Origin: Deltaproteobacteria bacterium
GTDB lineage: Bacteria > Lernaellota > Lernaellaia > JACKCT01
Direction of reading: 5' to 3'
Length of the DNA: 64,000 bases
Assembly: GCA_027493875.1 (NCBI GenBank)
Contig: JAOSJX010000025.1
Coordinates: 62,001 to 126,000 of the forward strand
Positions 11,973 to 56,061 of this stretch are shown here, in pieces. Under the pieces are notes generated by a model. It saw only the letters and a list, made by a program, of their open reading frames with translations, was not told the DNA's origin and did not search any database. A program made the translations under genes and the position numbers. The first letter of the stretch is position 1. Each line of letters starts with the position of its first letter.

Positions 11973-12621
11973 TCCAAGGGGAGTTCCCCCGGCTTTGCCG
12001 GGGAGGCATCCGTCGTTTGACAGTTCCAGAAGTCGTCCTATGAACTCCCGTTCGTGAGCCGACCAAGGCATCTCGAACAAAGGAGTTCATCTGGACGACC
12101 TCGAAAGCTTGAGCCATAGCGTATGGGCGTGTAAGTACCACGTGGTTTTCATTCCCAAGTATCGTCGCAAGAGGCTCTTTGGAGAGTTGCGACGGGATTT
12201 GGGGGAGGTATTCCGCACCTTGGCGCGGCAGAAGGAATGCGCGGTTCTGGAAGGACACCTGATGCCGGACCACGTCCACATGCAGATTTCAATCCCGCCG
12301 AAGTACGCGGTCGCGCAGGTGGTGGGATACATCAAGGGGAAAAGCGCGATTCACATCGCTCGGACGTACAGCAATGTGAGGCGGAACTTCGTGGGCCAGC
12401 ACTTCTGGGCACGAGGATATTTCGTGTCCACCGTCGGAAGGGACGAAAAAACAATTCGCGAATACATCCGCCGTCAAGAAGCCGAGGACAAGCGCCAAGA
12501 ACAGATGCGCTTTGTGTAACGCCCCCGAAGGGGCTCCCGGGCCGCTCGTGAGCGGCTCCCAACTAAGCCGCCTTGGGCGGCTCACAACATAAAGCCCCCC
12601 GCTTTGCGGGGGATCATTTAC
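11973..12621 (+). mobile_element. IS200/IS605-type element, copy 1 (tnpA ATG replaced by CTG)
   Basis: 649-bp unit with Y1/HUH TnpA (HVVFIPKYRRKRLFGELRRDL...MPDHVHMQISIPPKYAV). Palindromic hairpins at both ends (CCCCCGGCTTTGCCGGGG, CCCCCCGCTTTGCGGGGG). Confidence 0.85.
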
Positions 12622-13270
12622 TCCAAGGGGAGTTCCCCCGGCTTTGCCGGGGAGGCATCCGTCGTTTGACAGTTCCAGAAGTCGTCCTATGAACTCCCGT
12701 TCGTGAGCCGACCAAGGCATCTCGAACAAAGGAGTTCATATGGACGACCTCGAAAGCTTGAGCCATAGCGTATGGGAGTGCAAGTACCACGTGGTTTTCG
12801 TTCCCAAGTATCGTCGCAAGAGGCTCTTTGGAGAGTTGCGACGGGATTTGGGGGAGGTGTTCCGCACCTTGGCGCGGCAGAAGGAATGCGCGGTTCTGGA
12901 AGGACACCTGATGCCGGACCACGTCCACATGCTGATTTCAATCCCGCCGAAGTACGCGGTCGCGCAGGTGGTGGGATACATCAAGGGGAAAAGCGCGATT
13001 CACATCGCTCGGACGTACAGCAATGTGAGGCGGAACTTCGTGGGCCAGCACTTCTGGGCACGAGGATATTTCGTGTCCACCGTCGGAAGGGACGAAAAAA
13101 CAATTCGCGAATACATCCGCCGTCAAGAAGCCGAGGACAAGCGCCAAGAACAGATGCGCTTTGTGTAACGCCCCGAAGGGGGCTCCCGGGCCGCTCGTGA
13201 GCGGCTCCCAACTAAGCCGCCTTGGGCGGCTCACAACATAAAGCCCCCCGCTTTGCGGGGGATCATTTAC
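12622..13270 (+). mobile_element. IS200/IS605-type element, copy 2, direct tandem repeat of copy 1
   Basis: Second 649-bp unit, near identical; starts and ends at the same positions within the repeat. Confidence 0.85.
12740..13168 (+). CDS. tnpA: IS200/IS605 family Y1 transposase TnpA
   Basis: 142 aa; MDDLESLSHSVWECKYHVVFVPKYRRKRLF...GHLMPDHVHMLISIPPKYAVAQVVGYIKGKSAI...FWARGYFVSTVG. Confidence 0.9.
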   Translation: MDDLESLSHSVWECKYHVVFVPKYRRKRLFGELRRDLGEVFRTLARQKECAVLEGHLMPDHVHMLISIPPKYAVAQVVGYIKGKSAIHIARTYSNVRRNFVGQHFWARGYFVSTVGRDEKTIREYIRRQEAEDKRQEQMRFV

Positions 13271-22684: not shown

Positions 22685-22687
22685 GTT

Positions 22688-22733
22688 AGTCGCCAGTCGC
22701 CAGTGGCCAGTAGCCAGTGGCCGGTGGCCGGAA
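22688..22733. repeat. Heptamer tandem array (GTCGCCA-type)
   Basis: gtcgcca gtcgcca gtggcca gtagcca gtggccg gtggccg. Confidence 0.75.
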
Positions 22734-52511: not shown

Positions 52512-54209
52512 ATGGCCCGAAGGATCGGCGAGATCCTGATCGCGCACGGCGCCTGCGACCAGGAAGCGGTCGACAAAGCCCTCGAAACGCAGCGCGAAAA
52601 AGGCGGCCTGCTCGGCGAAATCCTCCTGAAGCAAAAGGCGGTCGGCGACGACGCCGTGCAAAAGGCGCTGGCCGAGCAATTCGATTTGGAGTTCATCGAC
52701 GTCATCGACGCACAGAACGTGGACGCGCATCTGCTGACGATGATTCCCATCACCTATGCAAAGGCGCATCTCGTTCTGCCGCTGCGGCGCGACGACGACG
52801 AGATCGTCGTGGCGTGCGCCAACCCGCTCGACTACGAGGTCCTCGACGATCTGCGCCTGTATCTCGACGGCGAGATCCGGCCGGTGCTGTCCACGCAGGG
52901 CATGGTTTTCGACACGATCAACCTTGTCTACGACCGCGCGCGGGAAACCAGCGACGAGGTGCTCGGCGACCTGGAAGAAGAAGGCGGTCCCGAAACCTTC
53001 GATCTCGAAGAGATGATCGACATCATCGACGCGACCGACGAGGATGCGCCGATTATTCGCCTCATCAACCACCTGATGTACCGCTCGGTCAAAGAACGCG
53101 CCTCGGATATTCATTTCGAGGTGTTCGAGAACGACCTGATCGTGCGTTTCCGGATCGACGGCGTGCTTTACGAGGTCATGCGTCCGCCGAAGCGGCTGCA
53201 CAACGCGATCGCGAGCCGCGTGAAGATCATGGCCAAGCTGAACATCGCGGAAAAACGCATCCCGCAGGACGGCCGCATCCGCATCAAAATCGCGGGCAAG
53301 GACATCGATATCCGCACGAGCATCATCCCCACCGCCTACGGCGAGCGCGTCGTGATGCGTCTTCTGGATAAGTCGCAGGTGCGGTTGGATTTGGAAAGCC
53401 TGGGTCTCGACGGGCCGCGGTTATCCGTCGTGAACAATTTGATTCACCGCGCGCACGGCATCATTCTCGTGACGGGGCCGACCGGTTCGGGGAAAACGAC
53501 GACGCTCTACGCGTCGCTCGTTCGGCTTAACAAACCGGACGTGAACATTCTGACGGTCGAGGACCCGATCGAATATCAGATTCAAGGCATCGGCCAGATG
53601 CAGGTGAATCCGAAGATCGATCTGACCTTCGCCTCCGGGCTGCGGTCGTTCCTGCGTCAAGACCCGGACATCATTCTGGTCGGCGAAATCCGCGATCTGG
53701 AAACCGCGGAGATCGCGATCCAGGCGTCGCTCACCGGCCACCTTGTGTTTTCGACGCTGCACACGAACGATTCGGCCAGCGCGTTTACGCGCCTCGTGGA
53801 CATGGGCGTGGAACCGTTTCTCGTGTCGAGTTCGCTGGTGGGCGTGATCGCCCAACGCCTCGTGCGCGTGCTGTGCGACGACTGCAAAGAGGCCTACGAC
53901 CCGACGGAGGAGGAGCTCGGAAAGATCGGGCTCACGCCGAAGGACGTCAACGGACAATTGTACCGGCCGGTCGGATGCGCCGCGTGCATCCAAACCGGAT
54001 ATGCGGACCGAACCGCCATCTATGAAATTCTCGTGATGCGCGAGAACATCCAACAACTCATCCTCGCCAACGCCGACGCCAACGCGATCAAGCGCGAGGC
54101 CATCAAAAACGGCATGGCCACGCTGCGCATGGACGGCGCCCGCCGCGTCATCCAGGGCGACACGAGTATCGAGGAAGTCATGCGCGTGACGTCGGAAGAC
54201 TTTCAGTAG
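52512..54209 (+). CDS. gspE: Type II secretion ATPase GspE
   Basis: GIILVTGPTGSGKTTTLYASL, NILTVEDPIEYQIQGIGQMQVNPKIDLTFASGLRSFLRQDPDIILVGEIRDLETAEIA, CDDC...VGCAAC. Confidence 0.95.
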   Translation: MARRIGEILIAHGACDQEAVDKALETQREKGGLLGEILLKQKAVGDDAVQKALAEQFDLEFIDVIDAQNVDAHLLTMIPITYAKAHLVLPLRRDDDEIVVACANPLDYEVLDDLRLYLDGEIRPVLSTQGMVFDTINLVYDRARETSDEVLGDLEEEGGPETFDLEEMIDIIDATDEDAPIIRLINHLMYRSVKERASDIHFEVFENDLIVRFRIDGVLYEVMRPPKRLHNAIASRVKIMAKLNIAEKRIPQDGRIRIKIAGKDIDIRTSIIPTAYGERVVMRLLDKSQVRLDLESLGLDGPRLSVVNNLIHRAHGIILVTGPTGSGKTTTLYASLVRLNKPDVNILTVEDPIEYQIQGIGQMQVNPKIDLTFASGLRSFLRQDPDIILVGEIRDLETAEIAIQASLTGHLVFSTLHTNDSASAFTRLVDMGVEPFLVSSSLVGVIAQRLVRVLCDDCKEAYDPTEEELGKIGLTPKDVNGQLYRPVGCAACIQTGYADRTAIYEILVMRENIQQLILANADANAIKREAIKNGMATLRMDGARRVIQGDTSIEEVMRVTSEDFQ

Positions 54210-54236
54210 CCAGTAGCCAGTCGCCAATGGCCAGGG
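54206..54236. repeat. Heptamer array (GTAGCCA/GTCGCCA) between gspE and the S23-like gene
   Basis: gtagcca gtagcca gtcgcca atggcca. Confidence 0.65.
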
Positions 54237-54335
54237 GAGAGCCGGCGCGTAAAATTCGACGACGAACGGGAATCAGAGAACCTCGTAAAAGCTCGCAAAC
54301 GAAGGAAGCAAAAATAGGCGGAGACAGGACTCGCG

Positions 54336-54716
54336 ATGCCTCCCGTGAAAAGTTATCGTGATCTGTTGGTTTGGCAAAAAGCGATGGGATTTGTTGCTCT
54401 TTGTTACCGGGCAAGTGACAAATTACCGACTGGCGAGGAATACGGATTGAAGAGTCAAATTCGACGAGCCGCCGTGTCGATCCCGACCAATATCGCCGAG
54501 GGTCATGAAAGAGGTAACCCTCGCGAGCTTGCGCGGTTTCTCGGCTATTCAAAGGGTTCTCTTGCCGAAGTCGAAACACTATCTCTCCTCGCACTGGAAT
54601 TTGGGTTTATCGCGCAGGACGGCGTCGACGATATTCTGGAACGGGCATCGGAGATCGGGAAAATGGTCAATGGGCTTGTCCGGTCCACCGGTGTGAAAAC
54701 GGCGACAGCCCGATAA
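54336..54716 (+). CDS. Four-helix-bundle protein (23S rRNA intervening-sequence / S23 family)
   Basis: YRDLLVWQKAMGFVALCYRASDKLPTGEEYGLKSQIRRAAVSIPTNIAEGHERGNPRELARFLGYSKGSLAEVETL. Confidence 0.9.
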   Translation: MPPVKSYRDLLVWQKAMGFVALCYRASDKLPTGEEYGLKSQIRRAAVSIPTNIAEGHERGNPRELARFLGYSKGSLAEVETLSLLALEFGFIAQDGVDDILERASEIGKMVNGLVRSTGVKTATAR

Positions 54717-54780
54717 GGTTCAAAAGTAGAAAAAACATGACGATCCGCACGAACAAAATATTTCCGGCGGCGCGATGCCA

Positions 54781-54818
54781 CCAACTGGCGACTGGCGACT
54801 GGCGACTGGTGACTGACT
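54781..54818. repeat. Heptamer array in opposite orientation (ACTGGCG), downstream of the S23-like gene
   Basis: actggcg actggcg actggcg actggtg actgac. Confidence 0.75.
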
Positions 54819-54823
54819 AACCC

Positions 54824-56061
54824 ATGCCGGTATTTAGCTACAAAGCCATGGACGCCCGCGGGAAGACCGTGAGCGGCATTGTGGACGCGGAGTCCGAAAA
54901 GGCGGCGAAGGCCAAGCTGCGCAAGGACGGCAAATTCCCGACCTCGCTCACGCAAGCGGAAGAGGGCAAGCTGACGCGCGGCAAGGGCCTGTCCATGGAG
55001 ATCGACCTGCGCGTGCTCATGGGACGCGTCAAGACGCGCGATCTGGCCATCGCCACGCGGCAGTTCTCCACGTTGATCGGTTCCGGCATTCCGATGGACA
55101 GCTCGCTGCAAGCGCTCGCCAAGCAGGTGGACAGCCCCGTGCTCACCAAGGTGTTCAGCCAGATACGCGAGCGCGTCACGCAGGGAACCTCGCTGGCCAA
55201 TGCGCTCAAGGAGTTCCCCAAATACTTCAGCGCGCTGTTCGTCAACATGGTTAACGCCGGTGAGCAATCCCGGAACGCTCGACACGGTCCTTACGCAGCT
55301 CGCCGATTTCACCGAGGCCACGCTCGACCGCGAACAGAAGATCAAGGCCGCGCTCATCTATCCGATTTTCATGACCATCATCGGCTCGGGCATCATGTTC
55401 TACCTTGTCGGGTTCGTCATTCCGAAAATCACGCAGATCTTCGAAGGCATGAACAAGGCGCTGCCACCCATGACCACGGCGCTGCTCGGCTTTGCCAATC
55501 TCGTGCGAGGCTATTGGTGGCTCGCGGCCATCCTCGGCGGGCTCGGCTATTACGGCTTTCGCCGCTGGCGCGACACGCCGAAAGGACGGAGCCGCTACGA
55601 CGCTTTCGTCCTACGCACGCCCGTCGCCGGACCGCTGGTCCGCAAGATCGCGGTCAGCCGCTTCACGCGCACGCTCGGCACCCTGCTGCGCAGCGGAGTG
55701 CCCATCATCGAGTCGATGAATATCGTCAAGAACGTCGTGACGAACGTCATCATCGAAAAAGGCGATCGAACAGGCGAAGGACAACATCCGCGAAGGGCAG
55801 TCGATTGCCAAGCCGCTGGAGGAGTCGGGCGTCTTTCCGCCGATGGTGATTCACATGATCGGTGTCGGCGAACAAACGGGCGAACTGGAAGAAATGCTCT
55901 TCCGCATCTCCGACGCCTACGACCGCGACGTCACCGCCACCATTCAGGGCCTCATGTCCGTGTTCGAACCCGCCATGTTGCTCGCCATGGCCGGCGGCGT
56001 CGGCTACGCCGTCCTCGCCATTCTCATGCCCATCATGGACATGACCTCGGGATTGCAATAG
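54824..56061 (+). CDS. gspF: Type II secretion inner-membrane protein GspF (two apparent frameshifts)
   Basis: MPVFSYKAMDARGKTVSGIVDAESEKAAKAKLRKDGKFPTSL, TRQFSTLIGSGIPMDSSLQALAKQVDSPVLTKVFSQIRERVTQGTSLANAL, MVIHMIGVGEQTGELEEMLFRIS. Confidence 0.92.

Follow-up and report, generated by a model that had tools for sequence, protein, structure and literature searches.

A 64,000-nucleotide stretch of the genome of a Deltaproteobacteria bacterium (GenBank assembly GCA_027493875.1, contig JAOSJX010000025.1, positions 62,001 to 126,000; hereafter the window) carries a gene for an S23 protein, the protein of 23S rRNA intervening sequences (IVSs), between the secretion genes gspE and gspF. Our analysis indicated that positions 54204–54815 of the window are probably a mobile insertion unit, in which a single S23 gene lies between inverted, element-specific arrays of 7-bp repeats, and which belongs to a class distributed across bacteria. 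The structural association between S23 and the heptamer arrays is strongly supported, and the mechanism set out below is what we infer.

A derived S23 insertion between gspE and gspF

The end of gspE (pos. 54209) and the start of gspF (pos. 54824) are separated by 614 bases. As the original prediction had described, the S23 gene in this interval (54336–54716, + strand; 126 aa; PF05635, TIGR02436) is flanked by inverted heptamers: a left terminal array of four CAGTNGC units (54204–54231, + strand; CAGTAGC, CAGTAGC, CAGTCGC and CAATGGC) and a right terminal array of about five such units on the − strand, which read as ACTGGCG on the + strand (54781–54815). Compared as inverted copies, the two arrays are identical at 21 of 23 bases, and they form terminal inverted repeats as in a DNA transposon or insertion sequence, as well as the complementary terminal repeats around an S23 open reading frame (ORF) that are typical of an IVS. 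The stop codon of gspE falls within the first heptamer of the left array, and the right array terminates nine bases ahead of the gspF ATG. The gene is joined to the arrays by a left linker (54232–54335, + strand) and a right linker (54717–54780, + strand), and the host genes on either side are gspE (52512–54209, + strand; Pfam T2SSE, 483 bits) and gspF (54824–56061, + strand). Neither a transposase gene nor a reverse transcriptase was found within the unit, in which S23 is the sole ORF with a family match; an Rfam search of positions 54000–55000 returned no match, and the unit does not lie in a 23S rRNA gene.

The two host genes are contiguous in two genomes of the same family (G001 and G002; ~80% amino acid identity of GspE and GspF), with 4 and 9 nt, respectively, between the gspE stop codon and the gspF ATG, and they are also contiguous in a genome of the same class (G003). 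Since gspE and gspF touch in all three relatives, the S23 insertion is derived and not ancestral. These empty sites, together with the inverted heptamer flanks of S23 genes elsewhere (below), support the earlier proposal that the insert is a self-contained unit which ends in inverted repeats and lacks a transposase, and confirm the unit as a real, derived insertion.

The 17-nt pattern CAGTNGCCAGTNGCCAG had 92 matches in the window's genome (G000), compared with none for the same pattern read backward as a control and none in six relatives; the focal arrays are therefore not a product of chance. The only other S23 gene of this genome with CAGTNGC heptamers (C24:157050) shows 74% DNA identity to the focal gene and is likewise bracketed by CAGTNGC arrays, beyond which the host DNA is unrelated; two diverged copies thus occupy unrelated sites, and similarity of the left linker to this copy was not convincing. 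The reading frame of the second copy is broken in the assembly, and the cause may be the same as in gspF, which is present as three successive frames with two frameshifts (~55265 and ~55770) that may reflect sequencing error or decay. Most S23 genes of the genome have inverted heptamer flanks, each with its own unit; at one of them (L001; unit GTAGGTA), the flanks on the two sides are identical over 31 of 31 bases. Solo CAGTNGC arrays, counted by pattern only, are also present in this genome: several of the ~25 adjoin stop codons, and one in the window (22687–22728; about six units) is located right after an apparent stop codon with no S23 gene.

Inverted heptamer arrays bracket S23 genes across bacteria

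Two collections of S23 genes were analyzed: those of 98 whole GTDB genomes (collection 1) and an independent set of 80 named loci from Acidobacteria, Planctomycetes, Bacteroidota, Bacillota, Proteobacteria, Chloroflexi and other groups (collection 2). The best inverted match between the 400 bases upstream and the 400 bases downstream of each S23 gene was taken as its inverted score, with a threshold of at least 14. This threshold was reached by 69 of 98 S23 genes in collection 1 and by 62 of 78 among the named loci, compared with a mean of 1.3 and 2.2 and a maximum of 6 and 8, respectively, when the flanks were randomly re-paired (2000 permutations). Other genes of the same loci had inverted flanks in 1 of 141 cases. 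Of 35 loci of Y1 transposases, another family of mobile genes, a single one contained strong period-7 arrays; the flanks of these loci carry palindromes instead. Among periods of 3–16, period 7 stood alone in the S23 flank repeats, apart from its multiples and a minority with period 8, and the arrays had a median length of 4.4 units. None of the collected S23 loci bore either of two conserved 23S signatures; the heptamer rule was thus tested outside rRNA. The bracket of inverted heptamer arrays is strongly supported as a feature specific to S23.

Comparison of the units revealed that an upstream unit agrees with its own downstream unit at six or more of seven positions in 77 of 96 cases, compared with 2.5% for units of other elements, and that sharing of heptamers between elements increases with S23 protein identity. 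The heptamer is inherited with the element: the unit differs from one element family to the next and is shared by the two ends and by close S23 relatives. The expectation that other S23 genes are flanked by the same heptamers therefore held in part: inverted heptamers recur around S23 genes of G000, of other phyla and of plasmids, but a single heptamer common to all S23 genes was rejected because the units differ by element family. On the S23-sense strand, G exceeded C in 89 of 102 upstream arrays, and C exceeded G in 91 of 106 downstream arrays. A degenerate AG-containing consensus unit performed only modestly better than shuffled units, rotation being free, and was discarded; the strand asymmetry alone was retained.

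Many bacteria have an excess of heptameric simple repeats (PMC4692102), and the lengths of the arrays vary as expected of slippage. Chance, or microsatellites grown by slippage around an ordinary S23 gene, nevertheless explains neither the inverted, matching units on both sides nor the empty sites that lack both arrays. The permutations and the empty sites contradict this explanation, which we consider extremely improbable.

Occupied and empty sites of S23 units

Twenty-four plasmid records, most of them from cyanobacteria, contained S23 matches; the phage records searched contained none. All 10 distinct plasmid S23 loci examined had an inverted match of at least 14. The plasmid units consist of array, S23 and array in ~0.4–0.6 kb and are usually found within operons, where they sit at a stop codon. 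Their host gaps include nrdB/nrdA (Nostoc), genes of a type IV secretion system region (Trichormus) and CRISPR operons of cyanobacterial plasmids (L344, L350 and L351), in which the unit is located between cas6 and cas4 twice (Anabaena and Pseudanabaena) and between cas10 and cmr3 once (Picosynechococcus PCC 7003).

The occupied Trichormus site reads aaaaaGTAAT, then AAATCAG...S23...TTCTTT, then GTAATTAAC, and its empty counterpart on 97%-identical plasmids reads aaaaaGTAATTAAC. The occupied Nostoc site reads ggTTCTA, then AATCAGG...S23...CTGGA, then TTCTAGTTatg, and the corresponding empty site reads ggTTCTAGGTTatg. These two pairs, the clearest cases, are compatible with a target duplication of 3–5 bases. 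Neither empty site holds an array, and therefore the arrays and the S23 gene came together. In addition, three units with ~80% identical S23 and one heptamer (L348, L353 and L408) are found at three different sites, for each of which empty counterparts exist. Insertion events that are derived and polymorphic, with arrays and S23 arriving together, are thus strongly supported. On a plasmid of Nostoc sp. C052 (L359), the site at which the Trichormus unit lies, and which is empty in other plasmids, contains a decayed remnant, consisting of an array and an S23 fragment.

Copies were also observed within single genomes. The G059 genome contains four near-identical S23 elements in unrelated places, one of which lies inside a ferritin gene, as read by eye from the translated flanks; joining the flanks restores the frame. 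The same genome contains ~30 full-length units of ~201 bp that have the ends of the S23 element without S23, often head to tail. At L284 (2770–3175) and other G059 sites, these 201-bp repeats are exactly head to tail and often located at contig ends. We also considered whether the G059 junctions (G followed by TTAAGC) resemble those of integrons; no inverse core site was seen by eye.

Two further arrangements were noted. In G064, an S23-less inverted unit of 540 bp (G064:C1:736691–737230, in L403) has heptamers at its outer ends and an inner inverted repeat of ~40 bp, similar to a miniature inverted-repeat transposable element (MITE). In G014, about eight places (L193 and L285–L291) contain two opposed S23-like genes in a multi-copy, imperfect palindrome of ~0.5–0.7 kb, unlike the usual single-gene unit.

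The S23 protein and its orientation in host operons

The focal protein matched Pfam PF05635 with 118 bits (cut-off 33.8) and TIGR02436 'four helix bundle protein' with 113 bits (cut-off 24), and its AlphaFold model is a predicted four-helix bundle with a confidence score (pLDDT) of 96. A Foldseek search with this model gave a template modelling (TM) score of 0.93 to 2GSC (Xanthomonas campestris XCC0516) and also matched 2RLD, both S23 structures of five chains each. Avd (4DWL) was more distant, with TM scores of 0.79–0.82, and the matches included the ribonucleoprotein entries 8UBE and 8UB7 of diversity-generating retroelements (DGRs). Against the Avd model NF033474, the focal protein scored 24.5 with a cut-off of 80 and by this measure is not an Avd. 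Seven residues (Q35, S42, N46, E49, G50, S69 and E72) are 97–99% conserved over 145 S23 sequences, and the ratio of nonsynonymous to synonymous substitution (dN/dS) for S23 pairs among L348, L353 and L408 was 0.10–0.15, values that show purifying selection on S23.

By simple ORF calling, 134 of 161 S23 genes follow a gene that points in the same direction, and the genes neighboring S23 units were separated by a median gap of 510 bp. Between two co-directional genes, S23 was in the sense orientation in 92 cases and antisense in 11. This bias toward the sense strand of the host operon favors what would be, in our assessment, the main rival reading, a role in RNA comparable to that of an IVS: the arrays would pair with each other in the transcript and form a stem for RNase III to cut, the unit would be excised from the operon message in the way that S23 IVSs are removed from 23S rRNA, and complementarity would be under selection with mobility incidental. 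In agreement with it, the complementary ends of the S23-bearing IVS of Coxiella form a 28-bp stem at which RNase III cuts (PMC4990558). In the minimum-energy fold of the focal transcript, moreover, the two arrays are paired as the closing stem. However, taken as a whole, the focal transcript has an unexceptional fold (z = −1.4), and pairing alone does not account for the strict 7-bp period. Selection for RNA pairing visible as a wobble bias was also rejected, since mismatches between the arms did not favor G-U wobble pairs on the side of the sense transcript (154 vs 160). We regard this explanation as serious but unlikely.

Proposed mechanism and candidate enzymes

Under the reading of a mobile insertion unit, the focal unit would have inserted at the gspE stop codon after the genus split from its sister genera, and the heptamer arrays would be its ends. 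We infer that S23, as a small protein of the Avd fold, would bind the repeated units at both ends and draw them together, whereas strand cutting and joining would be carried out by another enzyme acting in trans. A unit could then persist by settling at a stop codon where only a short gap separates co-transcribed genes, and it would be read through there in the sense direction. The S23 units in 23S rRNA genes, the IVSs, are probably those that landed in rRNA.

Two enzyme families, Y1 transposases and reverse transcriptases, were analyzed for co-occurrence with S23 in the 98 genomes. Y1_Tnp was present in 34 of 37 S23-positive genomes compared with 31 of 61 S23-negative genomes (p 2e-5), and restricting the comparison to genomes of 2.4 Mb or more left the association significant. 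RVT_1 showed no association (13/37 vs 15/61; p 0.36), and a reverse transcriptase was therefore rejected as the partner of S23; RVT_1 had no match in G000 (78% complete), G059 (99%) or G064 (100%). A Y1 (HUH) transposase would thus be the best, if weakly supported, candidate for the enzyme in trans. Two Y1 transposase genes of the IS200 type lie side by side on the + strand of the window (12118–12477 and 12767–13126), and the window's genome has 23 Y1 matches, compared with 1–7 in its relatives.

A more specific version of this proposal can be put forward only tentatively: S23 may be the mobility protein of a distinct group of transposase-less elements with heptamer-array ends, in which each lineage recognizes its own heptamer, and dispersed heptanucleotide repeats may be the solo or non-autonomous ends that such elements left behind or spread.

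Several observations weigh against the reading of a mobile insertion unit. The left and right junctions of the focal unit have only TA in common, without a clean target duplication, and the junctions of the L345, L351 and L353 pairs show small insertions or deletions. The G059 elements have no visible target duplication and carry extra sequence beyond the arrays, so the class is not uniform. To our knowledge, S23 has no known catalytic function. Three S23-positive genomes have no Y1 match, and the Y1 association is a correlation only, which may reflect a shared load of mobile elements. Mobility as such is read from the comparison of sequences. Finally, solo arrays outnumber S23 copies: ~25 CAGTNGC arrays without S23 are present in G000 compared with two S23 copies, and the complete 786-kb genome G064 contains 42 strong period-7 arrays, compared with five S23 genes and with at most nine arrays of any other period tested. 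Arrays can therefore exist or spread without a linked S23 gene.

The abundance of solo arrays, together with the S23-less units in G059 and G064, is what would be expected if the heptamer arrays themselves were the mobile or expanding entity, in the manner of repetitive extragenic palindromic (REP) sequences or MITEs, spread by some other activity with S23 as a captured passenger; the 186 GGGAATC arrays of Xanthomonas campestris, among which 70 inverted pairs lie close together (PMC4692102), point in the same direction. Against this stand the specificity of the bracket for S23 over many phyla (62/78 vs 1/141 control genes), the heptamer that follows the S23 lineage, the plasmid empty sites without an array, at which array and S23 arrived jointly, and the strong purifying selection on S23. 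We consider a passenger role of S23 improbable, more so than a role of the arrays in RNA.

Comparison with known systems

Heptamer-bracketed S23 units apparently form a widespread, undescribed class of tiny bacterial insertion units. In the open-access literature, to which our search was confined (subscription literature lay outside it), no paper linking S23 to heptamer arrays was found. The association joins two puzzles, the role of the S23 protein and the over-representation of 7-bp repeats in many genomes, and makes both testable, since every S23 gene points to its own candidate binding site. It also accounts for the presence of S23 genes within operons (cas6/cas4, cas10/cmr3, nrdB/nrdA and gspE/gspF), and, seen in this light, the 23S rRNA IVS is probably one particular form of a more general insertion unit that resides in operons. 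The rRNA IVS is thus an already described relative; should mobility prove to be the function of S23, the class would be new in kind.

Like the 23S rRNA IVSs of Coxiella and Leptospira, the units contain one S23 ORF in ~0.4–0.6 kb, have complementary ends and a patchy distribution, and lack a transposase (PMC4990558). Unlike them, they sit in protein operons, so that the focal unit falls outside the location that defines an IVS, and they end in tandem 7-bp arrays that are element-specific, with a short target duplication in relatives.

Dispersed heptanucleotide repeats have been described as GGGAATC in Xanthomonas and GGGGAYT in Nostoc (PMC4692102) and as TAACTGA in Beggiatoaceae (PMC4679880); the function of the X. 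campestris GGGAATC arrays was given as still to be elucidated, and the main text of that paper makes no mention of S23 (PMC4692102). The S23 arrays resemble these repeats in being intergenic and composed of 7-bp tandem units, commonly in about four copies (PMC4692102, PMC4679880), and share with those of Xanthomonas the many close inverted pairs (PMC4692102). In contrast to the dispersed repeats, for which no linked gene has been proposed, the arrays described here bound S23 and come with it.

S23 has the same fold as Avd of DGRs, but the S23 unit has no reverse transcriptase. Likewise, RAYT transposases and the REP sequences associated with them resemble S23 units in forming a single-gene unit whose flanking repeats are also dispersed in the genome, whereas the S23 unit has no Y1 domain and carries heptamer arrays in place of the REP palindromes.
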